From assembly GCA_021201815.1 (NCBI GenBank), contig JAJQEC010000148.1, positions 1 to 38,913 on the forward strand: a stretch of 38,913 nucleotides of DNA, written 5' to 3'. This document shows, in pieces, positions 10,522 to 24,523 of this stretch. Each line of letters begins with the position of its first letter. Position 1 is the stretch's first letter. The position numbers were made by a program, and so were the translations under genes. Source of the DNA: Candidatus Azobacteroides sp. (GTDB lineage: Bacteria; Bacteroidota; Bacteroidia; Bacteroidales; WRGA01). The notes beneath the pieces were generated by a model. It searched no databases. It saw only the letters and a program-made list of their open reading frames with translations, and had not been told where the DNA came from.

Positions 10522-10561
10522 AAAAAGCCCCGGCAATCAAAACTAATTGCCGGGGCTTTTT
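10522..10561. terminator. Strong bidirectional terminator
   Basis: AAAAAGCCCCGGCAAT pairs perfectly with ATTGCCGGGGCTTTTT across an 8-nt loop. It sits between the convergent small membrane protein (ends 10428, plus) and the end of cassette copy A (10614, minus) and can terminate both. Confidence 0.9.
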
Positions 10562-10613
10562 CGCTGATCTTAATAAGAGGTATAATTACTGGTTTCCGAT
10601 AAAAATAAGAGAT

Positions 10614-11015
10614 TTAATTCAGACATTTGCTTCCATGATAGGATAGGTTCTTCTTTTTATGAACCTGGTTCTTTAATTTATACATCGCAGAGGTAAATAA
10701 AAACAGGAGAAAGTATATCAGGATTTCCAATTTCCCTACCGATACTTTCTGTGGTGGATCGGACACTCCGGGAGGAGGTGCTGATAGAGAAATATCGTCG
10801 TCTTTGCCCAAGGATAAATTATTTTCATACTGGTGGGATGTAAAGAATACATTTTCTTTTAATTTTTTGTTTTCTGTGACTACCGGTATGCCTTTTATCC
10901 ATATTTCTCCCGGAGAAAATGTTTCTTTGTCTGATTTCTGTTCTGCCTCATATCCATATGTAAAACATGTCGCAGAAAACAGGAGTATTGCGAATAATAC
11001 AATTTTATCTCTCAT
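10614..11015 (-). CDS. Cassette A small protein with Pro-rich motif and C-terminal membrane helix
   Basis: The protein has 133 aa with a signal peptide (about 1-22), a polar middle, then the motif SLSAPPPGVSDPPQK (77-90) and VGK, a single hydrophobic helix (about 96-113), and a basic tail. It aligns without gaps over about 115 residues to the 118-aa protein at 17946-18302. The conserved parts are the signal peptide, the SxGxIW segment and the PPPG-DPP-helix end. Copy A runs 18 residues further after the basic stop-transfer region. The motif-helix-basic order recalls C-terminal sorting signals such as PEP-CTERM or GlyGly-CTERM, but no known signal matches. It is the last gene of a three-gene operon; the function is unknown. 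Confidence 0.75.
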   Translation of the reverse strand: MRDKIVLFAILLFSATCFTYGYEAEQKSDKETFSPGEIWIKGIPVVTENKKLKENVFFTSHQYENNLSLGKDDDISLSAPPPGVSDPPQKVSVGKLEILIYFLLFLFTSAMYKLKNQVHKKKNLSYHGSKCLN

Positions 11016-11107
11016 ACAAATAGTTTTATAGAAAGTTGTTTCTATTTTTAATTAAGGGAGTGAATACCTGTTTCTTTTTATTAAAACCGGTACACTTCCT
11101 TTGTCTT

Positions 11108-11974
11108 TTATTTAATGAATCTGATAACTCTTTTCTGACCATCAGGTGTTTCTCCATATACCAGATAAGCACCCGTAGGAAGATCTGCGGTGGAAGAATA
11201 TTCAGTTCTGTCTTCTTCTTTTATTAATATTCCGGACGGCGTATAAATTCGGATCCGGCAAGGAGTACTGCTTTTGATCCCCTGCGAGCTAATATTCAAC
11301 TTCAGGGAGTTGGGGATGGTATTTTCTATGCCGGTTGTTACATAACTTATTCTTACCTTCAGATCCTTCATAGTTACTCCTCCCGAAGCCCCATTATACT
11401 GTATCCCTGCGAAGTTGTTGCTGCTTACCAGCCGGATGCTTTTTATTTCCTTCCCGGAAGGGGCAGATATACTATGACCTGTGCAGGCACCCGAATAAAA
11501 ACCCGCCAGATACCCATCTTCGTAGCCTGTTCCGTCTGTTGTAGTACTAAATCCTGCGGTACATACATTCCCTCCGCTACTCACTCCGGTACCGGTTAAT
11601 TCTATAGCCTTTAATTCGGCATCTCCTGTAACGGTGATATCAATCCAGGTAGAACCATCTTCGTATCCGGTGATACCATTGAATACTCCTTCCATTTTCC
11701 ATACCGGGAAACTTCGGGAATTGGGCATGCTTAACCCGCATCCGCTGTGTGTCCAGCTAAACTGCTGTGTTATGGTTGTAACAGAAGCTCCTGAAATACT
11801 AAAAGCCGTGGCTAGCCCTTCATTATAAGATATGGAAAATCCTTCATTAGAAAGGTTTGCCGGTTCGGAGAGGTCTATTTCAAACTCATACGTATTTCCT
11901 ATGGCATGAAAGGATATCAGAAAAGCTGCCAGTACGGTAAATAATGCATTGAAAATGTGTTTTTTTCTTCTCAT
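11108..11974 (-). CDS. Cassette A 288-aa secreted protein with T9SS sorting domain
   Basis: This 288-aa protein has an N-terminal signal peptide (MRRKKHIF, hydrophobic to about residue 26). Its body is beta-rich, with conserved patches such as FSWTHSGCGLSMPNS, FPVWKMEGVFNG, GYEDGSTWIDITVTGDA and SSNNFAGIQYNGASGGVT. The end is a T9SS type-A domain (about 225-288: CRIRIYTPSGILIKEE, LPTGAYLVYGE, RVIRFIK). The body has no enzyme motif and could be an adhesin or carbohydrate-binding-like sandwich; that is inference. The partner at 18345-19211 also has exactly 288 residues. It lies between the giant gene (100-bp gap) and the small protein (92-bp gap). Confidence 0.82.
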   Translation of the reverse strand: MRRKKHIFNALFTVLAAFLISFHAIGNTYEFEIDLSEPANLSNEGFSISYNEGLATAFSISGASVTTITQQFSWTHSGCGLSMPNSRSFPVWKMEGVFNGITGYEDGSTWIDITVTGDAELKAIELTGTGVSSGGNVCTAGFSTTTDGTGYEDGYLAGFYSGACTGHSISAPSGKEIKSIRLVSSNNFAGIQYNGASGGVTMKDLKVRISYVTTGIENTIPNSLKLNISSQGIKSSTPCRIRIYTPSGILIKEEDRTEYSSTADLPTGAYLVYGETPDGQKRVIRFIK

Positions 11975-12074
11975 TGTTCTTTTGTTTTAGTTTTATAATT
12001 GTATCATATTTTCCAGAAAGAGCAACTCTTTCCCGGAAAAAGGAACAATTCCTTTTTCCGGTAGGAAAGGTTGT

Positions 12075-15000
12075 TTAATAATAGATTTTAAATACTTTAT
12101 TCGTTGTCCGGGTATTGCAGCGTACCAGATAAAAGCCGGTTGCAGGCATGGCCGGTTGCAGGATTACTTCCGGGTTGTTGCAGTCTGTTTTCCGGAAAAG
12201 CACATAGCCCTGCAGGTCAGAGACGATGACTTCTTCTATATTTTCTCCTGTGGAACTTACCAGACGAAGACTATTCCCCTCACGGTAAAACCGGATGTCA
12301 TTTTCTTTTTCCGGCAGCTGTTCCAATGACATAGGCGAACTGGTCAACCGGAGGTATAACCTGTCATTGATAAACACATCCTCTTCTTCTTTTTCAAACT
12401 CATACCAGGGCTGTGTCGACAAGTTAACACATTCGGTAAATATCCCTCCTTTATTATCTATCAGGTAAAGGGAAGAGAAGGAAGAAAAGCGCTGCACGCC
12501 TTCAAAAGATAACCTGACAGTACCTTTCTGCAATGTGCTTATTCCGATAGGTATTACTATATCTTCTTGAGGGTTTACCGTTTGTATATCCAGCATTGTT
12601 CCTTGCCCCGAGAGAGTGTAAATACTAACCGGATAGGGATAATCATAAATAATATTCCCTTCGTTATCGGTTTGATAGGAAAGATTCTCTTTCAGTAATA
12701 CTTTCAATGCATTTCCTTCTTTTCCGAAACTGTCATCTTCATCCATTAACAGAACCGTACGATTCGTGTGGCCGTTGATGGCAGCATCTATATACAATGG
12801 CCTGATATCCGGAACTTTTGTTGCTGCCCGGAGCTTGCTGCCGGGGTTTTGCTCTACATGCGTAACATGCGTGGACAAAGAAGAGAAGGCAGATGTGCTT
12901 TCCACAATAATACTCTGCATGGGAGGAATATATTCATCCAGTGGCGGATTGGCAGTGGTAATAGTAATAGAAGGATCATTAATGCCTCCTGTCCCGTACT
13001 GGAAATAGGTGCTGAAATTTTGTCCTGTCCCATCCAGTACCTGGTAATGATTCTTTATCGGATTCGCTGCCTGAAAGGATGCAAAATTCCAGTGGGCCAT
13101 AAACGGATTTCCTACAATTACCTTTGTGTCAGGTGCCGAAGCGGTTATCGGTAACGTGATATTACCTGTTCCCGGATCCCATACCCCATCATTCTCATAA
13201 ATAAACCGGTGATGTTTTTCCCTGCTTGCCGTATGGGTGTGCAGGTAGTTTCCTTCCCAGGAATAGAGCATATATCCGGTATCGTATTTCGGAAAATGGA
13301 AATCAAAAGGAGTATGCACGGAATAATCCGGTAATTTATCATCCACCCATACGGCAAATCCCATTCCGGGAGTAAATTTAATACCCGGCGTATTAAATGT
13401 TCCGGTCCATTCTCCTTCTATATAGGTACCATTCTGGGGATTACTCTGTCCGAAGAATCCCGTATAGATATATACATCATCCAGATGCGGATTCGGGTTA
13501 TGCACATAATAATCTCCCGGATAAAAATCTCCTAACGGAGCGGATAACATATACCAGCGGTTTCCGAGTAATTGCTGATGGATATACACTCTGTCATAAT
13601 CCAGGCTGTCAGTACGGATTACTTCCCCTCCGTGTTCAAACGTGATATTTGCACATTCTGATGTAGGATAATAGTAATAAGTCGTAGAAGAGGAGGAAAG
13701 ATCCGGGTAATGGACCAATCCGTCCGGTATCAGCACGTTGGTACATTTTCTTGGGACTTTGGAAGTCGGGTTGACGGGATGGGCCGGGTCCGCTTCCTTA
13801 GGGTCCAGCCAGTTACCATAGTTATGCCAGTCGGCGCTTTCATATCCGGTCCAGATAAGCGTATCCGGAGTCAGGTATACACAAACCGAATCCAGGACCA
13901 TGCTGACCGGGTTTCCATCAAGGTCACACAACATCAGGTAGAATTTCTCTACTGGGTCCGGATTTTTTTTAATTTCCATTGTTTCTCCGTTTATACCGAT
14001 TCGGCATTCTCCTCCGTTGGAGGTTGGCAACCATGTTCCTTCCGTAAGGGGATTATACATCTCCGAAACTTCATCGTATAAGAACCAGAAGTATTTATAT
14101 ACTCCTCGCGGATAAAGCTCAATAGTTTCTGTATCTCCTTCACATATAATCCGTTCATCGGGAGAAAACATTTTCCCTTTTGTGTAGTTGTTTGCTGTCA
14201 GGCATTCATCAAAAAAGAATACTCCTTCTTTTTCATTCAGTCTCAGTTCAAAATCTGAGTATTCATCCGAAGGATTAAGGATAAAAGGGAATGTAAATGA
14301 TATTTCCTTTTGTTCGTTGGGTTGTAGGGATATGTTCACTTGCTGGGTATGTAACCAGGTATATGTTCCGTCTTTTTTTTCAGCGTAGACAGACAAATAT
14401 AAAGGCTCGGTAGTAGGTGCGTTTCCTTCATTCCCTACAAATATGTCTACTTCTATTTCACCGTCGGCCTGCCTGTAGATGGTGTATGCCGGATAACCGA
14501 AGACAAAGGTTACATCGGCAGCAAGGTTCAACGGCTCTCCTTCGTCATTCAGCATGGTAGCCTGTTGGAAGAAATTATTATAGGGCTGATGGCGTTTCCC
14601 GGTTTTGGTAATAAATTCGGTAGCCGGACTTAATGGGTAAGGAGGTACCGTGAGGTCTTCATTGATGTTCACAGGGTTGAATGCATGCTGATTCCATACT
14701 CTCCGTGCAGGGGCCCATGGGCTGGTATCAGGATATTCCGATTTAAAGACCCATAGTGGTCCTATGGATGCACTTGTCCCACTAATACTGCTATGTGCGC
14801 CTACAATTAGTATTTCCGCCTGTCCGTCGCCGTCTATATCAGCGATTACGGGATATTCATATCCGGTACCGGAGATATTGGAAAAAGAAGCTAAGTTATA
14901 AGGTTGGGTAGGAAGACCGGTCTGGTGGTGGATTCCACTTCCATTGATAATACGCAGGTCGGTTTCATCCCGGTATACTAACTCGGAAATTCCATCCTGG

Positions 15001-16520
15001 TTAAAATCAAATAACGTGATACCGGTACAACCCGACCGGTCGGAGTGAGTAAAACTCCAGAATTGTTTGAAAACAGGATTTCCTTTTTCATATTTGTAGG
15101 CCAGAACAACCGCCTCCGCTGATGGGGCAATGGCTCCATTTGTCGTATTTTTAATTAACACTATTTCGGGGTGTCCGTCGCCGTCAATATCTCCGACGAA
15201 AGGATAACTTCTGGTGGCTGCATTAGGAATATATTTGGAAGCTTTGATCTCTCCGGTTTCCGGATCTGCAACGTATAAAAAGGTATACCTGGAAGGTATA
15301 TCACATATGGTTACCAGCAAATCCAGTTTACCATCATTGTCTATATCTACCAGGGAACACCAGCCTCCGTCAGGTAACGAAATATTTCCTGCAGGTTTAT
15401 TAGGATCCGAAGCATGAATAGCCGGTGTGATTTTCCGGATAAGAGTCAATGTACTTAGATTTTCGTCCGGCTTATATATATAATTGCCTGTTATGAAATA
15501 AGCATTTCCATCATTAAAAACATCAGCAACAAGAGGGGTCGGTGTGTTAAGGCTACTTATATTATTATCATGATTGACAGGTGCCTCACACAATCGTTTC
15601 CCGGTGGTAGAATCAAAAATACTTCCGCAAATTATAATTTCCGGAATCCCATCCTGATTAAGGTCTGCTATGATTAATGAGATTTCCTGGTAATTGGTGG
15701 GATGATATTTTTCATTACTTGTCCAGATTAAATTGCCATTGTGGTTATAAGCTCTTACATAAAAGTCTCCTTCTGCAACAACAATCAGGGTAGAATCTTT
15801 TTCCGCTAACGTAGTTTTTGCAATGGCATAGAGCGTAAATCCGGTCCAACTGTATGGAGAAACAGTATTTATTATTTGGGGAGGTTGTTGAATATCATTT
15901 CCTTTATAAATTGCAATTTGCGATGAAGGGCGTACAATACCGTTGACCGGATTACTTCCGGGATTTGCGGAAACCAGTATTTCTACTATACCGTCTCCGT
16001 CAATGTCTCCGACAATGGGGATCTGATAAGGAGAAAGATTGATTTCATTCGTTCTGGTACTGACAATTCCCCATTCCTGAGGAAGAGGAGTGGTCGTACA
16101 CATATCCGTATAGAGGTTGTCCGGTTGGTTGGCTACATTGATATATACCCATGCCATTTTCGTTTCACCGGTGGCTGGGATATATACCGAATATCTCAGG
16201 GAATCCCGTCCCCGGAATCCGTCTTCCGGAGTATACCGGATCAGGTTCATAGGTGGCTCTACGCTTACTGACCCTGCTTCTGCATAATGGGGAGTGGTTT
16301 CAATGGTTACTATTACCTCAGACCAGTGGTATAACCCTAACTCATCATTGGAAAGCACATTCCATCGTGCACTTCCTCCGGGATTGACAAATACATTATC
16401 CGGATTAGGCTGGAATGTCTGCGCTTTCAGCCCGGTTATCGTAAGGAAAAGTAATATCAGGTAAAATGTGCTCCGCCTTACCCGGAGATCTCTTGAAAGA
16501 TAAAATCCTTTTCTTCTCAT
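12075..16520 (-). CDS. Cassette A giant FG-GAP/VCBS-repeat T9SS protein
   Basis: The protein has 1481 aa from the start MRRKGFYL, chosen because a signal peptide follows (to about residue 34) and because copy B begins MRRNYFYL; 89 upstream in-frame codons are ignored. A cadherin/Big-like domain comes first (SNDELG, YTPEDGFRGRDSL). Six DxDxDGxxE-type calcium-binding FG-GAP motifs follow near residues 173, 289, 393, 447, 507 and 563 (GDIDGDGIVE, ADLNQDGIPE and so on), suggesting a beta-propeller. A CARDB-like region comes next, then a TLIWTGYESADWHNYGNW segment near 880, and finally a T9SS type-A tail (about 1405-1481: EVIVSDLQGYVLFRK, GFYLVR, KVFKIYY). It is likely exported and surface-bound or released. 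It is the first gene of the operon, with a ~640-nt leader. Confidence 0.88.
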   Translation of the reverse strand: MRRKGFYLSRDLRVRRSTFYLILLFLTITGLKAQTFQPNPDNVFVNPGGSARWNVLSNDELGLYHWSEVIVTIETTPHYAEAGSVSVEPPMNLIRYTPEDGFRGRDSLRYSVYIPATGETKMAWVYINVANQPDNLYTDMCTTTPLPQEWGIVSTRTNEINLSPYQIPIVGDIDGDGIVEILVSANPGSNPVNGIVRPSSQIAIYKGNDIQQPPQIINTVSPYSWTGFTLYAIAKTTLAEKDSTLIVVAEGDFYVRAYNHNGNLIWTSNEKYHPTNYQEISLIIADLNQDGIPEIIICGSIFDSTTGKRLCEAPVNHDNNISSLNTPTPLVADVFNDGNAYFITGNYIYKPDENLSTLTLIRKITPAIHASDPNKPAGNISLPDGGWCSLVDIDNDGKLDLLVTICDIPSRYTFLYVADPETGEIKASKYIPNAATRSYPFVGDIDGDGHPEIVLIKNTTNGAIAPSAEAVVLAYKYEKGNPVFKQFWSFTHSDRSGCTGITLFDFNQDGISELVYRDETDLRIINGSGIHHQTGLPTQPYNLASFSNISGTGYEYPVIADIDGDGQAEILIVGAHSSISGTSASIGPLWVFKSEYPDTSPWAPARRVWNQHAFNPVNINEDLTVPPYPLSPATEFITKTGKRHQPYNNFFQQATMLNDEGEPLNLAADVTFVFGYPAYTIYRQADGEIEVDIFVGNEGNAPTTEPLYLSVYAEKKDGTYTWLHTQQVNISLQPNEQKEISFTFPFILNPSDEYSDFELRLNEKEGVFFFDECLTANNYTKGKMFSPDERIICEGDTETIELYPRGVYKYFWFLYDEVSEMYNPLTEGTWLPTSNGGECRIGINGETMEIKKNPDPVEKFYLMLCDLDGNPVSMVLDSVCVYLTPDTLIWTGYESADWHNYGNWLDPKEADPAHPVNPTSKVPRKCTNVLIPDGLVHYPDLSSSSTTYYYYPTSECANITFEHGGEVIRTDSLDYDRVYIHQQLLGNRWYMLSAPLGDFYPGDYYVHNPNPHLDDVYIYTGFFGQSNPQNGTYIEGEWTGTFNTPGIKFTPGMGFAVWVDDKLPDYSVHTPFDFHFPKYDTGYMLYSWEGNYLHTHTASREKHHRFIYENDGVWDPGTGNITLPITASAPDTKVIVGNPFMAHWNFASFQAANPIKNHYQVLDGTGQNFSTYFQYGTGGINDPSITITTANPPLDEYIPPMQSIIVESTSAFSSLSTHVTHVEQNPGSKLRAATKVPDIRPLYIDAAINGHTNRTVLLMDEDDSFGKEGNALKVLLKENLSYQTDNEGNIIYDYPYPVSIYTLSGQGTMLDIQTVNPQEDIVIPIGISTLQKGTVRLSFEGVQRFSSFSSLYLIDNKGGIFTECVNLSTQPWYEFEKEEEDVFINDRLYLRLTSSPMSLEQLPEKENDIRFYREGNSLRLVSSTGENIEEVIVSDLQGYVLFRKTDCNNPEVILQPAMPATGFYLVRCNTRTTNKVFKIYY

Positions 16521-16631
16521 CTTATTTTTGTTTATTATGAAAAAATATGCTGTTTTGATAATGCGCCAATTTGATAATGTACCGGTGTGCCAACGCAAGC
16601 AGGTAAGTCGGGAAAAGAGGATAGAATATAA

Positions 16632-16667
16632 AAACCGGGGGATACAAAAAATATATCCGCCCGGTTT
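16632..16667 (-). promoter_or_regulatory. Covarying leader hairpin, copy A
   Basis: AAACCGGG (16632-16639) pairs with CCCGGTTT (16660-16667). An inner stem GGATA/TATCC follows, with one unpaired base (16659) between the stems on the right arm. Copy B has the same architecture with different bases at several pairs, which supports a real RNA structure. Confidence 0.55.
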
Positions 16668-16954
16668 GTACATGAAAAAGCCGGAAGAAGTCATGGAAGA
16701 TTTCTGCCGGGACAAAATAAATGAAGGGACAATCTTCCATCGTGCCTCCATTAAGGTAAGGTATATATTAATTTGATAATTTGCCAATTTGCCAATTTGC
16801 CAACATGATAATAGGGTGATGGCAGATGAAAAAGCAGTGTATGAGTTAAAAAGGATAAAAGAAAAACAGGCAGCTTTCCCTTTTTCTTTCTTTATCAGGG
16901 GAAAGAAAAAACAGGGTAAAAAGAAAATAACGGAAAAAAAAAGGAAGAATGCTT

Positions 16955-16983
16955 GCGTAATTAAAGAAGATTTCGTATTACGC
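16955..16983 (-). promoter_or_regulatory. Attenuator-like leader hairpin, copy A
   Basis: GCGTAAT (16955-16961) pairs with ATTACGC (16977-16983). On the minus strand a run of nine U (plus-strand A-run at about 16936-16944) follows about 10 nt later. It starts 16 nt after the stop of the leader ORF. The stem is short, so termination strength is uncertain. Confidence 0.4.
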
Positions 16984-16998
16984 GCACAGGTTAATAAA

Positions 16999-17106
16999 TT
17001 ACTTAATGAGTGGTAGTCTCTCTCTCTCTAATAGAATTCGGTTAACTTCCAAATTATCAGAAGAAAAAGTGGTAAAATAAAACATATTTTCAAGAGAGAA
17101 ATCCAT
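16999..17106 (-). CDS. Leader small ORF, copy A (35 aa)
   Basis: The ORF encodes 35 residues beginning MDFSLENMFYFTTF and continuing SSDNLEVNRILLERE. It lies at the 5' end of the long leader, about 60 nt after the predicted transcription start. Copy B has the same ORF (33 aa) with one silent and two replacement changes before the ends diverge at a TC-repeat tract (17017-17029). The DNA is nearly identical anyway, so conservation alone does not prove translation. It is too small for most gene callers. A leader-peptide role is inferred from position. Confidence 0.35.
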   Translation of the reverse strand: MDFSLENMFYFTTFSSDNLEVNRILLERERLPLIK

Positions 17107-17170
17107 CAAGTCTTACCTGTTTTTAGGAGATGTAATGAAATTGTTAATTGTATTAATTAAAAAGATGCTG

Positions 17171-17201
17171 TAAATTTAAGTAAATATTTTATAAAAACAA
17201 G
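17171..17201 (-). promoter_or_regulatory. Candidate promoter of cassette A (weakened)
   Basis: The -7 element reads TAAATTTA and, 19 nt upstream, the -33 element reads CTTG. Copy B has TAAATTTG and TTTG at the same places. Copy A thus departs from the Bacteroidota consensus at one base of each element. Confidence 0.5.
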
Positions 17202-17414
17202 CCGGAAATTTCTAACGGAATGTTTTTTTATAAAACCTGTCATTTCTTTTATTTATGACTAGTATCTGGAATGCAAAGAAAAACTTCCTGATAAAATAAG
17301 AAAGGAAATGATATTTATCTGAACAGGAGAAAAAGAAACCGAAGTACTTATCTATTTTATATGTAATTTCCCGGGATTCCTGCCGATAGCTTTCCAATGT
17401 TATTAATTTAAGCG

Positions 17415-17461
17415 CCGTGTGCTGAGGCCTCACGGCTAGTGATATGGCGCCACTCCGTGGC
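17415..17461 (+). repeat. REP-like 47-bp element, copy 1
   Basis: It begins CCGTGTGCTGAGGCC and ends GCCACTCCGTGGC. The first half can fold through CCGTG/CACGG and the second through GCCAC/GTGGC. It is followed by an ATTATC/TTGGCA-rich tail. Confidence 0.85.
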
Positions 17462-17598
17462 TTGTGGATGAGAAGCCATACACAGATTAATATATTCCCA
17501 CCTTATCTTATTATTTCATTGGCATATTGGTTATCCCAAAGGCTGTCTGACTCCGTCATTTCTTAGAATCGTAACAAAAATCTCCTTTTATAAAATCC

Positions 17599-17631
17599 CT
17601 TTCCAGTAGGGAGGGACTCCCTACTGGAAAG
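17599..17631. repeat. Perfect 33-nt hairpin
   Basis: Arms of 15 nt (17599-17613 and 17617-17631, CTTTCCAGTAGGGAG and its complement) flank the loop GGA. No U-run follows, so it is more likely a REP-type palindrome than a terminator. Confidence 0.7.
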
Positions 17632-17817
17632 CAGTAGCAGCTGCGTAGCCATGGGGCTCAATCCATGGTCGAAGGGTAATATCACGCACTAATGCACTGC
17701 AGCACAGTGCCACATTATATATTTTACGGCACAGCTCTGCAGTCGGCAGGAAAACAATTGTGGAAAACAGATTGGAGAAAAGGAAGGTAGCCTTACATTA
17801 ACGACCTTACCCTCAAA

Positions 17818-17864
17818 GCCGCTCAGCGGCGACATATCCCTAGCCGTGCTGCATCAGCACACGG
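17818..17864 (-). repeat. REP-like 47-bp element, copy 2 (compensated stem)
   Basis: This is an inverted copy. Its second hairpin reads GCCGC-TCA-GCGGC where other copies have GCCAC-GGA-GTGGC (as read on the plus strand of inverted copies). Both sides of the stem changed together, keeping the pairing. Confidence 0.8.
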
Positions 17865-17945
17865 TTCTCTCATTCAATCCATTGGTTATCCATCCGCAAA
17901 GAATCCGGGAAAAAACAAACTCTCCTGCTTTTTACCTTCTACTTT

Positions 17946-18302
17946 TTACCTTTTACCTTTCAATGTATATACCGTAAAAGTCCCTAAACACAACATAACG
18001 TAGACCATCATTTCCTGTCTTCCCAGGGGAACTTTCTGCGGTGGGTCAGTAACGCCCGGAGGAGGAGCGGAAAGGGAAGGGTCTTCCTCGTCATTGAATA
18101 ACAAGCTGCCCTCCTGTTTAACAGAAGAAAACAATCGGTTTCCTTTCCCCTCTTGCTCTTCTTTCACATCCGGCCTCCCACCTGCCCATATATCTCCGGA
18201 AGAACGGACCCTCCCGATGGATTTTCCTTCTGCTGTGTATCCGTACATACCATAAAACGGAGATAGCAGAAGAAATACACATACGATTATTTTACCTCTC
18301 AT
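17946..18302 (-). CDS. Cassette B small protein with Pro-rich motif and C-terminal membrane helix
   Basis: This 118-aa protein has a signal peptide (about 1-22), a charged middle, SLSAPPPGVTDPPQK (77-90), VPLG, one hydrophobic helix (about 97-113) and the very short basic end KGKR. It aligns without gaps to the first ~115 residues of the copy A protein at 10614-11015. The shorter end makes the tail look even more like a cleavable or anchoring sorting signal: motif, helix, then a few basic residues. It is the third gene of cassette B, 42 bp after the 288-aa gene. The function is unknown. Confidence 0.75.
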   Translation of the reverse strand: MRGKIIVCVFLLLSPFYGMYGYTAEGKSIGRVRSSGDIWAGGRPDVKEEQEGKGNRLFSSVKQEGSLLFNDEEDPSLSAPPPGVTDPPQKVPLGRQEMMVYVMLCLGTFTVYTLKGKR

Positions 18303-18344
18303 AAAAATTGTTTTATCTTTAATGAATGAAAGAACATGCTTTCT

Positions 18345-19211
18345 TTATTTGATAAATCTCATTACTTCTTTCTTCCCATCTGCTGTTTCCCCGTGGACAA
18401 TATATATCCCCGGCGCAAGCTCTGAAATAGAAAGTTGTTTTGTGTCCTTCCCTTCCTTTACCAATATACCGGAAAGGGAATACAACCTGATTCTACAGGC
18501 TGTGCTGGCAGTAATGACGTCTTCGGAAGCCGACAATTCCAGGGAGGTGGCTTTGACCCCTTCCATAGCGGTTGAAATATAACTCATAATCACTTTCAGC
18601 TCTTTAATGGTTACCCCTCCCGAAGCCCCGTTGTATTGCAGTCCTGCAAAATTATTGCTGCTTACCAGGCGGATGCTTTTGATTTCTTTACCGGCAGGGG
18701 ACACCAGGCTGTAACCGGTGCATCTTCCTGAAAGGAAAGTGGCCATCTCCCCATCCTGATACCCGGTCCCGTCTGTTTCGGTGCTGAATCCGGCTGTAAA
18801 CACATTGCCGCTGCTGGTTGTACCTGTGCCTGTCAGTTCTACGGCTTGCAGCCTGGCATCCCCTGTCACGGTGATGTCAATCCAGGTGGAACCATCCTCA
18901 TATCCTGTCATTCCATTAAAAATCCCTTCCATCTTCCACACCGGGAAACTTCCGGAATTAGGCATGCTTAACCCGCACCCGTTGTGCGTCCAGCTAAACT
19001 GCTGATAGACCGTTGTGATAGCTCCCCCGGATAAGTCAAAAGCCGTAATAAGCCCATCGTTATAGGAGAGGTGGAAACCAGAAGCGGTAATCCCGCTTAT
19101 ATCCGTCAGGTCTATCTCCACTTCCTGGGTAGTAGCATAAGCATTTACTGTTGCTGTGATACAGGCGATGACCATACAGATTGCAATGAACGTGTTACTT
19201 TTCCTTCTCAT
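18345..19211 (-). CDS. Cassette B 288-aa secreted protein with T9SS sorting domain
   Basis: The protein has 288 aa from the start MRRKSNTF, which opens the signal peptide and gives the same length as copy A; 11 upstream codons are ignored. The body has FSWTHNGCGLSMPNS, FPVWKMEGIFNGMTGYEDG, DITVTGDARLQAVELTGTG and SSNNFAGLQYNGASGGVT. The last ~65 residues form a T9SS type-A domain (CRIRLYSLSGILVKE, LAPGIYIVHGE, EVMRFIK). Identity to copy A is high throughout the body and falls in the linker before the T9SS tail. It sits 65 bp below the giant gene and 42 bp above the small protein gene. Confidence 0.82.
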   Translation of the reverse strand: MRRKSNTFIAICMVIACITATVNAYATTQEVEIDLTDISGITASGFHLSYNDGLITAFDLSGGAITTVYQQFSWTHNGCGLSMPNSGSFPVWKMEGIFNGMTGYEDGSTWIDITVTGDARLQAVELTGTGTTSSGNVFTAGFSTETDGTGYQDGEMATFLSGRCTGYSLVSPAGKEIKSIRLVSSNNFAGLQYNGASGGVTIKELKVIMSYISTAMEGVKATSLELSASEDVITASTACRIRLYSLSGILVKEGKDTKQLSISELAPGIYIVHGETADGKKEVMRFIK

Positions 19212-19276
19212 TTGAATATTGTTTTTAGTTTGTTTGTTATACATTTATTTATGTTTGCCGGGCATCTCTTTTTTCC

Positions 19277-22200
19277 TTAATAATATACTTTAAATACGCG
19301 GCTGCAGCTCCGGGTATTAGCCCGTACCAGGTAAAATCCTTCTGCCGTAGCCGAAGGTTGGATGGATACTTCGGAATTGCCACTGGTAGTACTTTTGAAG
19401 AGAATCCGGCCATGCAGGTCCGTTACCACTATTTCTTCTATGTTTTCCCCGGCCATACTTTTCAAATACAATGTGTTCCCCTGCCGGTGAAGACAAATAT
19501 TGCTTTCATTGTTTATAACCGGATCCATTGAAGTGCCCTTACGCAGGATGGTGAGATAGAACCGGTCGTTTAAGAACGCCTCCTGGTGTTGTTTTTCAAA
19601 CTCGTACCAGGGCTGCTCTGACAACTTTATGTTTTCTGTGAAAAAGCCCCCTTCTTTGTCCACCAGGTACAGGTCATAGCGGGCCGATATATCCTCCATC
19701 CCCTCAAAGGACAGGCGCACCGTCCCTTTTTGCAGGGTACTTATACCGATCGGAATGCTGATCCCTTCCTGCGGTATGCTTTGCACATCCAGCAGGGATC
19801 CATCCCCGGAGAGAGTGTAAATACTGACCGGGTAGGGATAATCCGTTATAATGTTTCCCTGCTTGTCCACCTGGAAAGAAAGGTTTTCTTTAAGCAATAC
19901 CTTTAACACGTTCCCTTCCCCGTTGAGTGTGTTTCCGGGGTCAAGGAGCAGGACGGTACGGTTGGTATGCCCGTTTATGGCCACATCTATATAAAGGGGT
20001 TGTATGCCTGGCCCGGCAGCAGCCCGTAGTTTTACTCCGGCACCGGAGGCCACATGGGAGACATGGGTGGAGAGTGAATTGAAAGCAGCGGTACTTTCTA
20101 TCAGGACACTCTGCATCGGGGCGATGTATTCATCCAGGGGCGGGTTGGCAGTGGTAATGGTAATGGAAGGATCATTGGTAGCCCCTGTGCCGTACTGGAA
20201 ATAGGTGCTGAAGTTTTGTCCTGTGCCATCCAGTACCTGGTAGTAATTCTTTATAGGGTTGGCAGCCTGGAAGGATGCAAAATCCCAGTGTGCCATAAAG
20301 GGGTTCCCCACAATCACTTTTGTATTGGCAGCCGACACGGCCACCGGCAGGGTAATCTCCCCGGTTGCCTTGTTCCACACGCCTTCCTCTTCATAGATAA
20401 AGCGGTGATGGATATCCCTTGTGGAGGGATGTGTGTGGAGTACATTTCCCTCCCAGCTGTAAATCAGGTACCCCGTATCATACTTCGGGAAAGAAAACAG
20501 GGTGGGGGTGTGGATGCTTAAGTCCGGTTGCTTGTCGTCCACCCATACGGCAAATCCCATTCCTGCATTAAACTTTATGCCCGGGGTATTGAAAGTCCCA
20601 GTCCATTGCCCTTCGACATAATTGTTGCTCTGTGGGTTGCTCCGACCGAAGAATGCGGTGTAAATATACACATCATCCAGGTGCGGATTGGGATTGTGCA
20701 CATAATAATCCCCCGGATAGAAATCCCCGAGTGGGGCGGCAAGCATATACCACCGGTTGCTCATCAGTTCCTGGCTGACATAAGCGCGGTCATAATCCAG
20801 GCTGTCGGTACGGATTACTTCCCCTCCGTGTTCAAAAGTAATATTGGCACACTGTGATTTTACATATTCATAATAGGTAGTGGAAGATGGGGAAAGGTCA
20901 GGATAGACCATCAATCCATCCGGTATCAGTACGTTGGTACATTTGCGCGGTATCTTCGAAGAAGGATATACCGGGTCATAAGGATCCGTTTCAGTCGGGT
21001 CCAGCCAGTTTCCGTGGTTATGCCAGTCGGCACTTTGCGCCCCTGTCCAGATCAGGGTATCGGGAGTCAGGTACACGCAAACCGAATCCAGGTCCGAACT
21101 CAGCGGGTCACCGTTCTGGTCTAAGAGCAATAGGTAGAATTTTTCCACAACCTCCCCGTTTTTGGTAATTTCCAAAGTTTCCCCGCCAGTCCCTATCCGG
21201 TACTCCCCTCCATCGGCGGAAGAAATCCAGGAATTTTCGTTCAGGGGTCCATCATAGCTTCCGGTACCTTCATCATAAGTAAACCAGAGGTAGGTGTAAA
21301 TCCCCTGCGGATATAGCTGGATGAGTTCGGTACTTCCTTTGCACATAATGCGTTCATCCGGGGAAAACATTTTTCCCCGTGTGTAGTTATTTGCCGTCAG
21401 GCATTCATCAAAGAAGAACACCCCTTCCTTTTCGTTGAGCCTGATTTCAAAACCCTTGTAATCATTTTGTGGGGTATAGGGAAAGGAAAACGTTATTTCC
21501 AGTTGCCGGTTAGGGGCTATTACCGTATCTGTTTCCTGCGTATACAAATATACATAACTGTCATCGTCTTTTACTGCATAAACAGAGATATATAACGGGG
21601 AAGTAGTAGGGGCATTGCCTTCATTCACGGTAAAAACCGTTACCTCTACTTTCCCTTCTGCAGGTTTATAAATCGTACTTGCCGGATATCCGAACACAAA
21701 AGAAATATCGGGCGCCAGGTGTAAGGGCTCTCCTTCGTTATTGAGTTCGGTTGCCTGCTGCAGGAAGTTATTATATGGTCGGTGTCGTTTCCCTGTTTTG
21801 GTTACAAACTCGGTTACCGGGCTTAGCGGGTAGCGGGGAACAGTAAGGTCTTCATTGATATGGACCGGGTTGAAGGCATACTGGTTCCATACCTTCCGGG
21901 CAGGAGCCCAGGGGCTCTCATCAGGGAATTCGGACTTAAAAACCCATAAACATCCGCGATGTCCGTTGGTGCCAGCAATGTCACCATGTGCTCCGACGAT
22001 CATTATTTCCGCCTGTCCGTCTCCGTCCACATCAGCGATTACAGGATATTCTGTTCTGGTTCCCGATATACAATTAAACTGGGCAAGGTTATATACAATA
22101 GTATCCTGGCCTGTAATGTGGCTTTTTAAACTTCCGTTAATAATTCGGAGATGTCTCTCATCTCTGTACACCAGTTCCGAAATCCCATCCTGGTTAAAGT

Positions 22201-23707
22201 CAAATAGGGTAATGCCGGTATTTCCGGAATTATCCGTATGGTCCAGCCGCCAGAATTCTTGCAGGACAGGATTGCCCGGCACGTATTTGTAAGCCAGTAT
22301 CAGCCTGATACCAGCCGGAGTCGTAGAGGTGTCCTTATTTTTAATGATAACAATTTCCGGAAAGCCATCCCCGTCGATGTCACCGACGAAAGGATAACTG
22401 CTTTCCCCTGCGTCCGGAATATATTTGGAGGCTTTTATCACCCCTGTTTCCGGATCAGCAATATAAAGAAAAGTGTATTCCGCAGATGCGAAGTTAAGTT
22501 TGCCTATCAGATCCGGTTTTCCGTCATTATCCATGTCTACGGCAGACATTGACCCTCCGTCAACAAGTGTTGGTAAAGTGGCGGGCGCATCCGGGTCAGT
22601 GGGTTCCACTGCCGGTATAATCTTACGGACAAGGGTCATCGTACTCAAATCCGAACTGATTGAATAAATGTAATTCCCGTTAATTATATTCATATTTCCG
22701 GTGCCGTAAAGGTCTGCCACAACCGGTATGCTGAGATTATATCCCGTAGCAAGTTCAACAGGCGCGGCACAAAGCAGTTGCCCGGTTACCGAGTCAAACA
22801 CTTTTCCACAGCAAAGAACTTCCGGAATTCCATCATGGTTTAAATCGGAAAAAACCGGGGAGCCATACTCTTGGGAATTGCTTACGGAATGATAAGTATC
22901 ACTACTGGTCCATATCAGGTCCCCGTTGTAATTATAGGCCCGGAGATATAAATCCCCTTCCGCTACCACAATCAAGGTCGAATCCTTTTCATTGATCCGG
23001 GTTTTAACAATTCCGTATTTAGTATAAAAATTCCAGCTATATCTTTTTACCGTATTGATTATCCGGGGCGGAGCAGACAGGTCATCCCCCTTATAAATCG
23101 CAATCTGTGGAGAATGACGGTATACTCCATCCATTGTTCCATCTACCGGATTCATGCATACAAGTATTTCAGGAATACTGTCTCCGTCAATGTCCCCGCA
23201 AATTGCGTTCTGATATGGAGACAAATTAATCTCATTTGTCCGGGTGTCTTTTATTCCCCATACCTGCGTAGGAGGTGTTGCTGTACATACATCTGTATAC
23301 AAATTATCCGGCTGGCTGCTTACGTTGATATATACCCAGGCGGTTTTGGTTTCCCCGAGTTTGGGGGCATAGACGGAGTATTGCAGGGAATCACGTCCCC
23401 AAAAACCATCCTGCGGCGTGTAATGGACCAGGTTCATCATACCTTCTACAGAGACCGTTCCCGGCTTGGCATGCTGCGGATTGACGGTAATGGCTACCGT
23501 TACTTCCGACCAGTGGCAGGTTCCCAGTTCATCATTGGAGAGCACATTCCAGCGGGCACTTCCAGCGGGTTCCACAAATACATTATCCACATGCGGCTGG
23601 AATAGTTGTGCCCGCACAGTCACTGCCAGAAAGAAAAAAATCACCAGACAGCCGATGCTTCTTTTTGCCGGAAGCGGGCTGATAAGATAAAAGTAGTTTC
23701 TTCTCAT
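19277..23707 (-). CDS. Cassette B giant FG-GAP/VCBS-repeat T9SS protein
   Basis: This 1476-aa protein is the partner of the 1481-aa copy A protein and shares the whole layout: a signal peptide (to about residue 34), a cadherin/Big-like domain (SNDELG, YTPQDGFWGRDSL), six FG-GAP calcium motifs (GDIDGDSIPE near 175, then SDLNHDGIPE, VDMDNDGKPD, GDIDGDGFPE, FDFNQDGISE, ADVDGDGQAE), the TLIWTGAQSADWHNHGNW segment, and a T9SS type-A tail (EIVVTDLHGRILFK, GFYLVR, RVFKVYY). The first motif carries Ser in place of the usual Gly. Codon use is visibly more GC-rich than in copy A. It is the first gene of operon B. Confidence 0.88.
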   Translation of the reverse strand: MRRNYFYLISPLPAKRSIGCLVIFFFLAVTVRAQLFQPHVDNVFVEPAGSARWNVLSNDELGTCHWSEVTVAITVNPQHAKPGTVSVEGMMNLVHYTPQDGFWGRDSLQYSVYAPKLGETKTAWVYINVSSQPDNLYTDVCTATPPTQVWGIKDTRTNEINLSPYQNAICGDIDGDSIPEILVCMNPVDGTMDGVYRHSPQIAIYKGDDLSAPPRIINTVKRYSWNFYTKYGIVKTRINEKDSTLIVVAEGDLYLRAYNYNGDLIWTSSDTYHSVSNSQEYGSPVFSDLNHDGIPEVLCCGKVFDSVTGQLLCAAPVELATGYNLSIPVVADLYGTGNMNIINGNYIYSISSDLSTMTLVRKIIPAVEPTDPDAPATLPTLVDGGSMSAVDMDNDGKPDLIGKLNFASAEYTFLYIADPETGVIKASKYIPDAGESSYPFVGDIDGDGFPEIVIIKNKDTSTTPAGIRLILAYKYVPGNPVLQEFWRLDHTDNSGNTGITLFDFNQDGISELVYRDERHLRIINGSLKSHITGQDTIVYNLAQFNCISGTRTEYPVIADVDGDGQAEIMIVGAHGDIAGTNGHRGCLWVFKSEFPDESPWAPARKVWNQYAFNPVHINEDLTVPRYPLSPVTEFVTKTGKRHRPYNNFLQQATELNNEGEPLHLAPDISFVFGYPASTIYKPAEGKVEVTVFTVNEGNAPTTSPLYISVYAVKDDDSYVYLYTQETDTVIAPNRQLEITFSFPYTPQNDYKGFEIRLNEKEGVFFFDECLTANNYTRGKMFSPDERIMCKGSTELIQLYPQGIYTYLWFTYDEGTGSYDGPLNENSWISSADGGEYRIGTGGETLEITKNGEVVEKFYLLLLDQNGDPLSSDLDSVCVYLTPDTLIWTGAQSADWHNHGNWLDPTETDPYDPVYPSSKIPRKCTNVLIPDGLMVYPDLSPSSTTYYEYVKSQCANITFEHGGEVIRTDSLDYDRAYVSQELMSNRWYMLAAPLGDFYPGDYYVHNPNPHLDDVYIYTAFFGRSNPQSNNYVEGQWTGTFNTPGIKFNAGMGFAVWVDDKQPDLSIHTPTLFSFPKYDTGYLIYSWEGNVLHTHPSTRDIHHRFIYEEEGVWNKATGEITLPVAVSAANTKVIVGNPFMAHWDFASFQAANPIKNYYQVLDGTGQNFSTYFQYGTGATNDPSITITTANPPLDEYIAPMQSVLIESTAAFNSLSTHVSHVASGAGVKLRAAAGPGIQPLYIDVAINGHTNRTVLLLDPGNTLNGEGNVLKVLLKENLSFQVDKQGNIITDYPYPVSIYTLSGDGSLLDVQSIPQEGISIPIGISTLQKGTVRLSFEGMEDISARYDLYLVDKEGGFFTENIKLSEQPWYEFEKQHQEAFLNDRFYLTILRKGTSMDPVINNESNICLHRQGNTLYLKSMAGENIEEIVVTDLHGRILFKSTTSGNSEVSIQPSATAEGFYLVRANTRSCSRVFKVYY

Positions 23708-23765
23708 CGTTATTATTTATTTTATTTAGCTGATTTTTAAAGTTTACGGGAAGCAGGATAAATGA

Positions 23766-23801
23766 AAACCGGACGGCATGGGAAACATGTCGGTCCGGTT
23801 T
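23766..23801 (-). promoter_or_regulatory. Covarying leader hairpin, copy B
   Basis: AAACCGGAC (23766-23774) pairs with GTCCGGTTT (23793-23801). An inner stem GGCATG pairs with CATGTC (one G-U pair) around GGAAA, with one unpaired base (23792) between the stems, as in copy A. It ends about 59 nt before the start codon. Confidence 0.55.
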
Positions 23802-24085
23802 ATACATGAAAACCCCGGAAGAAAAGCTCCCTGCTTTTCCCCAGGACAAAATAAATGAAGGGACAATATCCCATCGTGCCTCCACCAAGGTAAGGTATAT
23901 ATTAATTTGATAATGTGACAATGTGACAATGTGCCGGTTAAGCTGGCTTACCTGATCATTGAAAGAATGAATAGGGGATGTTATATCAGGTCCTTTCAGG
24001 AATAATTTGCTGAACAGATATATTCCTATGCGGAATAACATCAGAGAAATAAAGACCGGAATAAAAAAATAAGAAGGAAGATATT

Positions 24086-24114
24086 GCGTAATTAAAGAAG
24101 AATTAGTATTACGC
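24086..24114 (-). promoter_or_regulatory. Attenuator-like leader hairpin, copy B
   Basis: GCGTAAT (24086-24092) pairs with ATTACGC (24108-24114). On the minus strand a U-rich stretch (plus-strand A-run near 24063-24070) follows about 16 nt later. It lies shortly after the leader ORF stop, as in copy A. Confidence 0.4.
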
Positions 24115-24133
24115 GCACAGGTTAATGAATTAC

Positions 24134-24235
24134 TTAGTGAGTGATGCTCTCTCTCTCTAATAGAATTTGGTTAACTTCCAAATTATCAGAAGAAAAAGTG
24201 GTAGAATAAAACATATTTTCAAGAGAAAAATCCAT
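24134..24235 (-). CDS. Leader small ORF, copy B (33 aa)
   Basis: The ORF encodes 33 residues beginning MDFSLENMFYSTTF and continuing SSDNLEVNQILLERE, then SITH. It matches the 35-aa ORF of copy A up to the GA/CT repeat (24147-24158), after which the frame differs by one base. Whether it is translated is unknown; its place at the 5' end of the leader and before a hairpin is that of a leader peptide. Confidence 0.35.
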   Translation of the reverse strand: MDFSLENMFYSTTFSSDNLEVNQILLERESITH

Positions 24236-24298
24236 TAAGTCTTACCTGTTTTTAGGGATGTAATGAAATTGTTAATTGTATTAATTAAAAAGATGCTG

Positions 24299-24329
24299 CA
24301 AATTTAAGTAAATATTTTATAAAACCAAA
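24299..24329 (-). promoter_or_regulatory. Candidate promoter of cassette B
   Basis: On the minus strand the -33 element is TTTG and the -7 element is TAAATTTG with 19 nt between, a full match to the Bacteroidota sigma-ABfr promoter. The predicted start is near 24292, giving a leader of about 585 nt. Confidence 0.65.
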
Positions 24330-24523
24330 TCTTCTGTTTCGGTCCGGTTCTGATTTGAAGGGTTTGTCCGTTTTGTGAGCTTCCCGTAGTTTCCTGTGAG
24401 CGATAAAATTAAAGTATTTATAATAAATGTAGTTTTTTTGGAACAATACTTCGTTTGATATAAATGTGTCTTATAATAGAAAGTAAAGAAGAACTTTTTT
24501 TAAACGGGAAAAAATCATTTGGT

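Follow-up and report, generated by a model that had tools for sequence, protein, structure and literature searches.

The two gene trios described here are very probably surface-protein operons with a phase-variable leader open reading frame (ORF), in which slipped-strand changes in a dinucleotide tract would determine whether translation of the leader is coupled to the operon. The architecture of this leader is conserved, its tract differs in length among copies, one reading frame downstream of the tract is open under selection, and the arrangement recurs in other families. The window analysed is a stretch of 38,913 nt from Candidatus Azobacteroides sp. (contig JAJQEC010000148.1), and the trios in it are two of a much larger set in the same genome.

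Gene trios and their relatives in the genome

Both trios are found where an earlier note on this DNA had placed them, in the same order and on the same (minus) strand.

19277..23707, minus strand: unit 1 giant protein, 1476 aa; signal peptide, Big_9, FG-GAP repeats
18345..19211, minus strand: unit 1 medium protein, 288 aa; T9SS type A sorting domain
17946..18302, minus strand: unit 1 small protein, 118 aa; signal peptide, acidic stretch, PPPG..PQK motif
12075..16520, minus strand: unit 2 giant protein, 1481 aa; FG-GAP, T9SS type A sorting domain
11108..11974, minus strand: unit 2 medium protein, 288 aa
10614..11015, minus strand: unit 2 small protein, 133 aa

The giant proteins (1476 versus 1481 aa) are 67% identical, and the medium proteins (288 aa each) are 62-63% identical. 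The small proteins (118 versus 133 aa) are 46% identical over residues 1-116, with equal lengths on both sides. Matches to FG-GAP and Big_9 are reported for both giants. The T9SS type A sorting domain model (TIGR04183, cut-off 23 bits) matches the unit 1 medium protein (P0004) at 27.7 bits and the unit 2 giant (P0005) at 23.1 bits. A weak C-terminal match in the unit 1 giant (P0006) falls just under the cut-off at 22.6 bits, and the unit 2 medium protein (P0003) has no TIGR04183 match in the family-model scan. AlphaFold yields a poor model of the medium protein (mean pLDDT 49.9) except for the sorting domain. The C-terminal part of the unit 1 small protein consists of a hydrophobic segment followed by a basic tail. 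No family in Pfam or NCBIfam fits the small protein, and known CTERM models (Loki-CTERM / PEP-CTERM-like) do not match it, the best E value being 0.014, in 3 of 23 members. Searches of Rfam find no known RNA within the window.

The genome surveyed comprises 4.22 Mb in 151 contigs. It contains 27 matches to the leader that precedes each trio, representing 22-27 physical loci; the count is given as a range because some matches lie at contig ends. The window giant has approximately 20 relatives in the same genome. Leader, giant, medium and small genes follow each other in that order at 14 of the 15 leader loci that are not cut by a contig end (the exception, on C124, is without the small gene), and complete trios number at least 14. 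Local arrays also occur elsewhere, with two copies each on contigs C23, C20, C3 and C150. The two window trios had been interpreted as a tandem duplication. This was not borne out: the giant at 12075-16520 pairs with the second copy on C23 (support 100/99) instead of with its neighbour. Because relatives of the leader and the giant are found genome-wide and the window giants are not sisters, the window trios form part of a family scattered through the genome, in which local arrays occur, rather than a private tandem duplication.

The earlier proposal that the three genes were kept together agrees with the 14 of 15 uncut loci in this genome. In 'Candidatus Azobacteroides sp. Mp193P4bin6', a MAG of the same genus and the nearest named relative, three of the four giants are likewise followed by a medium and a small gene. 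Rare co-occurrence, which had been named as the result that would refute the proposal, is not what is found. The same note suggested that the three proteins could act together as a complex, with sorting or anchoring as a possible task of the small one. Among the medium proteins, 15 of 18 match PF18962 at E values up to 0.1, and the 23 relatives of the small protein share F..KDED.SLSAPPPG..G.PQK.PL, a hydrophobic segment and a basic tail. The host is probably an insect-gut bacterium, and the company of its relatives suggests a termite-gut origin.

Some members of the family depart from the typical form. Three giants and one medium gene (L012 on C80, L013 and L060 on C23, L019 on C36) contain a single in-frame stop codon (TAG or TGA), which hints at silent or decaying members. 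In the window, unit 1 is separated from the unit 2 leader by approximately 700 nt (17250-17945) that have no equivalent on the upstream side of unit 1. Within this stretch, 17362-17463 and 17816-17917 form an imperfect inverted repeat of 102 nt (71% complementary), possibly a decayed mobile element.

Leader, promoter and AG tract

The elements of the two leaders, from promoter to open frame, are as follows.

24326-24329, minus strand: unit 1 promoter -33 box, TTTG, at a spacing of 19 to the -7 box
24299..24306, minus strand: unit 1 promoter -7 box, TAAATTTG, pattern TAnnTTTG
24134..24235, minus strand: unit 1 leader ORF as assembled, ATG at 24235, 33 aa, MDFSLENMFYSTTFSSDNLEVNQILLERESITH
24147..24158, minus strand: unit 1 (AG)6 tract
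24086..24114, minus strand: unit 1 hairpin GCGTAAT/ATTACGC, 3' of the tract
23583..24146, minus strand: unit 1 ON frame, 187 stop-free codons; 125-nt overlap with the giant gene start, which is read in a different frame
17171..17178, minus strand: unit 2 promoter -7 box, degenerate (TAAATTTA)
16999..17106, minus strand: unit 2 leader ORF as assembled, ATG at 17106, 35 aa, MDFSLENMFYFTTFSSDNLEVNRILLERERLPLIK, OFF phase
17017..17029, minus strand: unit 2 (AG)6A tract
16955..16983, minus strand: unit 2 hairpin GCGTAAT/ATTACGC
16521..17015, minus strand: unit 2 ON frame, stop-free, same frame as the giant gene

The leader is more conserved than the genes, since the coding DNA of the two units is 70-79% identical and parts of the leader are 89-96% identical (91-96% between the stretches at ~16950-17200 and 24084-24328). 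In 23 of 24 copies, the leader ATG is preceded at a distance of 65-82 nt by a TAnnTTTG box, compared to 5% in shuffled sequence. Among the 25 inverted-repeat pairs listed, none brackets 17171-17178 or 24299-24306 as a short invertible segment. The start codon lies exactly 77 nt 5' of the (AG)n tract in 24 leader copies, and n ranges from 4 to 12; these length differences are among paralogues within a genome, each species being represented by one assembly. All 22 genomic sites with (AG)6 or more in the 4.22 Mb fall in these leaders, and the tract is longer and more specifically placed than expected by chance.

A reading frame that stays open

Two of the three frames stop promptly past the tract, within the conserved stretch, as does the unit 1 leader ORF in its assembled (OFF) phase. 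The third reads HSLSNLLTCARN.KSSLITQ and then stays open. Of 20 copies scored, 19 have no stop in this ON frame as far as the first structural gene; in one of the 19 it ends 2 nt before the gene's ATG. The exception, C23a, has no recognisable gene start. In nearly all copies the other two frames combined contain 8-23 stops, and shuffled sequence is almost never open in the ON frame. In roughly half of the copies, the ON frame and the first gene form one fused frame; in the rest the ON frame ends near the gene's ATG, in some cases as a 4-nt ATGA overlap with it. Gain or loss of AG units would thus shift the reading frame between open and closed. In two variant operons (L083 on C57 and L084 on C14), the small gene comes directly after the leader, in the same frame as the leader's ON frame, and is followed by the giant.

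The possibility that the leader encodes a conserved peptide was considered and rejected. Before the tract, comparison of paralogues reveals no excess of third-position change. After the tract, dN is about equal to dS, and paralogues differ by compensated frameshifts. Because these changes accumulate in a frame that nevertheless remains free of stops, openness of the frame, or the passage of ribosomes through it, appears to be what is preserved, and not a peptide.

Homologous leaders in other Bacteroidales

The exact window leader is absent from 59 relatives of the order, which at first suggested that it is specific to one lineage. This idea was overturned by looser patterns and by the discovery of an (AC) form. 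The MAG Gx485_bin3 has 61 AC tracts of 7-52 units, mostly in a homologous leader. A leader ORF, for example, MIVVEMNS..LYLFNENYLDVPNNFVTHTHTH, precedes 52 of the 61 tracts, and its ATG is mostly 75-79 nt upstream of the tract. An ATGA overlap ends 12 of the 33 longest frames. In MS502-62, a related hairpin follows the tract. The six copies checked there are all (AC)5 and nearly all in an off phase, so that switching may have been lost or may work differently.

A MAG labelled Prevotella has (AG)28 after MPDNLGITFILLERER. Searching 393 genomes of the order with a loose pattern returned three genomes of family f20 and one of family f91 with ..NLEV..ILLERERER or similar leaders, and control searches with reversed patterns gave near zero matches. 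The cargo in f20 and f91 includes SusC/SusD-like operons, a likeness judged by length, order and sequence ends, together with other exported proteins; one case is in a single-contig genome. Genome G292 provides a fairly clear case of the AC pattern (MPENLEVSKIRVNTHTHT), and others are weaker. The match in G067, which is without a leader ORF, is probably due to chance. Those in G002, G147, G305, G273 and G065 either lack a clear leader ORF of the NLEV type or allow no judgement, and they are not counted as firm.

These leaders have a motif around ATTTGG and encode ..NLEV..ILLERERER or ..THTHTH. It is probable that they represent a portable phase switch used across the Bacteroidales, in which a homologous leader ORF with an AG or AC tract couples ON-phase translation to surface operons, among them those for T9SS giants and SusC/SusD.

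Two other arrangements were observed in these relatives. Three giants of Mp193P4bin6 (L133, L134 and L139) share a leader that has no AG tract; a run of ~14-17 T close to its promoter might serve as a homopolymer switch in place of the tract. At five loci of MS502-62 (L140, L145, L149, L157 and L158), a single ORF encodes a fusion in which a small tail-helix-like protein precedes the giant, in contrast to the separate downstream small gene of the window genome.

Proposed mechanism and alternatives

In the proposed mechanism, a Bacteroidota-type promoter would give rise to an mRNA with a leader ORF of ~25 codons, followed by the (AG)n tract. The reading frame would shift as AG units are gained or lost by strand slippage. 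In two of the three phases, ribosomes would stop a few codons past the tract (OFF). In the ON phase, they would continue for ~70-250 codons and reach or enter the start of the giant gene. Translation in the ON phase would raise expression of the operon, most likely because translation is coupled and polarity along the leader is relieved, and cells would display different members of the surface-protein repertoire at random. From comparisons of sequence we infer replication slippage at the tract, its effect on expression and its biological role.

A 7-bp hairpin lies ~15-20 nt past the OFF stops in nearly all copies, and a T-rich stretch follows it. Divergent leaders at the start of L082 (C3) and in L089 (C34) are without the GCGTAAT/ATTACGC stem. 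L089 has a different stem at the same place, which suggests that the structure of this element matters rather than its sequence. The same repeat switch could operate by transcription attenuation of the pil1 type, wherein an early ribosome stop allows the hairpin to end transcription and a ribosome that reads on melts it. The conservation of the hairpin, the T-rich stretch after it and the replacement stem in L089 all favour such a role, and the mechanism has an experimentally tested precedent (PMC3894217). However, as an intrinsic terminator the hairpin is weak (-6.4 kcal/mol) and its T-run is not adjacent. Attenuation also has no need for a frame that is open for a further 250-640 nt to the gene start. 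Because the frame is open far past the hairpin, all the way to the gene, coupling and relief of polarity are preferred, and attenuation is judged a serious contender that is nonetheless unlikely.

The phases found in the assembly bear on how the tract acts. Among 23 scorable copies in the window genome, the two closed phases account for 17 and 5 and the open phase for one; both window copies are closed. If all phases were equally likely, one or fewer open copies among 23 would have a probability of 0.001. Selection for a mostly OFF state, or shared phase ancestry, could explain this scarcity. ON is likewise rarer than one in three in Gx485_bin3, where 7 of 39 scorable copies are ON and 32 are OFF, with both OFF phases present. 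The rarity of ON in both genomes is counted in favour of the switch. The single ON copy of the window genome, C95, is at a contig end, which counts against a phase-variable leader, as does the unevenness of the OFF phases (17:5), which simple drift does not predict. Positions 1-55 of the window are identical to the outward end of contig C95, and both contigs end in the same unresolved repeat. Joining the two contigs was rejected, as the common 55 nt are this shared repeat.

Uneven phases (17:5:1), and the concentration of MS502-62 copies in one off phase, would also be compatible with programmed ribosomal or transcriptional slippage at the tract, by which a fixed fraction of ribosomes enters the ON frame without any change in the DNA. 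Such a device is improbable given that tract length varies from 4 to 12 units here and from 7 to 52 in Gx485_bin3, that ON and both OFF phases are present, and that no usual slippery heptamer or stimulator was noticed.

Leaders that are more alike than their genes are what gene conversion would give. The trios might then be an ordinary multicopy T9SS operon with a conserved 5' untranslated region, and the AG tract a by-product of conversion. This account has little chance of being correct, as it leaves unexplained the stop-free third frame, the swap from AG to AC at the homologous place in other families, and the lack of long AG tracts elsewhere in the genome. Promoter swapping by recombination between near-identical leaders (expression-site switching) would make use of the leader, which is the longest near-identical stretch between copies. 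It is most improbable because every copy comes with a promoter and a downstream frame of its own, and recombination is needed for neither.

A phase-variable leader coupled to the operon remains the best reading, and three further observations count against it. In the roughly half of copies where the ON frame is fused with the gene, the signal peptide would become internal to a longer protein, except where translation begins at the start codon of the gene itself. The six tracts checked in MS502-62 are all (AC)5. Finally, some ON frames in family f20 end 50-200 nt short of the next gene.

Comparison with known phase-variable systems

The closest known mechanism is that of Streptococcus gallolyticus pil1. 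In the pil1 and pil3 loci, repeats reside in a leader ORF upstream of a surface-protein operon, and repeat number sets the extent of leader translation and thereby the ON or OFF state (PMC3894217). Short repeats occupy the same position here. The pil systems use GCAGA pentamers at two described loci, with a strong terminator hairpin at which the leader ends (PMC3894217). In contrast, the leaders described here have dinucleotides, 22-27 (or ~60) loci per genome, a weak hairpin and a frame that is open to the gene start.

Dinucleotide repeats near a 5' end also shift the frame of a surface protein in Helicobacter pylori oipA, where the repeat is CT (PMC10564699). That tract lies in the 5' region of the gene itself (PMC10564699). 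The tract described here belongs to a separate leader ORF, with a T9SS operon or, in other genomes, SusC/SusD as the cargo. The large paralogous surface families with one repeat tract per member resemble Neisseria opa (PMC11868660) and Mycoplasma gallisepticum vlhA (PMC6258824). They differ from both in that the tract gates a leader ORF. In opa, the repeats are within the part that encodes the signal peptide, and the GAA repeats of vlhA act at the promoter.

Phase-variable genes for surface structures and nutrient uptake are familiar in the Bacteroidales from the invertible promoters of Bacteroides, which switch by recombinase-mediated DNA inversion (PMC11868660). None of the inverted repeats listed brackets the window promoters, and switching would instead occur by repeat slippage. 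Repeat-gated leader peptides and dinucleotide frameshift switches are already known; a homologous, many-copy version that spans several Bacteroidales families and feeds T9SS and SusC/SusD-type operons was not found in the literature searched, which covered few subscription papers. Nor did that literature describe phase variation by repeat tracts for this leader, for T9SS operons or for SusC operons.

Phase variation in Bacteroidales has been described mainly as DNA inversion, and a 2025 review poses the question of why genomes with many phase-variable loci seem to be restricted to pathogens (PMC11868660). Under the model, one likely insect-gut symbiont would have 22-27 repeat-switched surface operons and another ~60, with a similar leader before SusC/SusD nutrient-uptake systems in another family. 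If it is correct, non-pathogenic insect-gut symbionts would have repertoires of 20-60 repeat-switched loci, and random surface diversification would serve symbiosis, protist attachment or phage escape besides immune escape. Such large sets of surface switches that turn on and off at random would be of a type familiar chiefly in pathogens.
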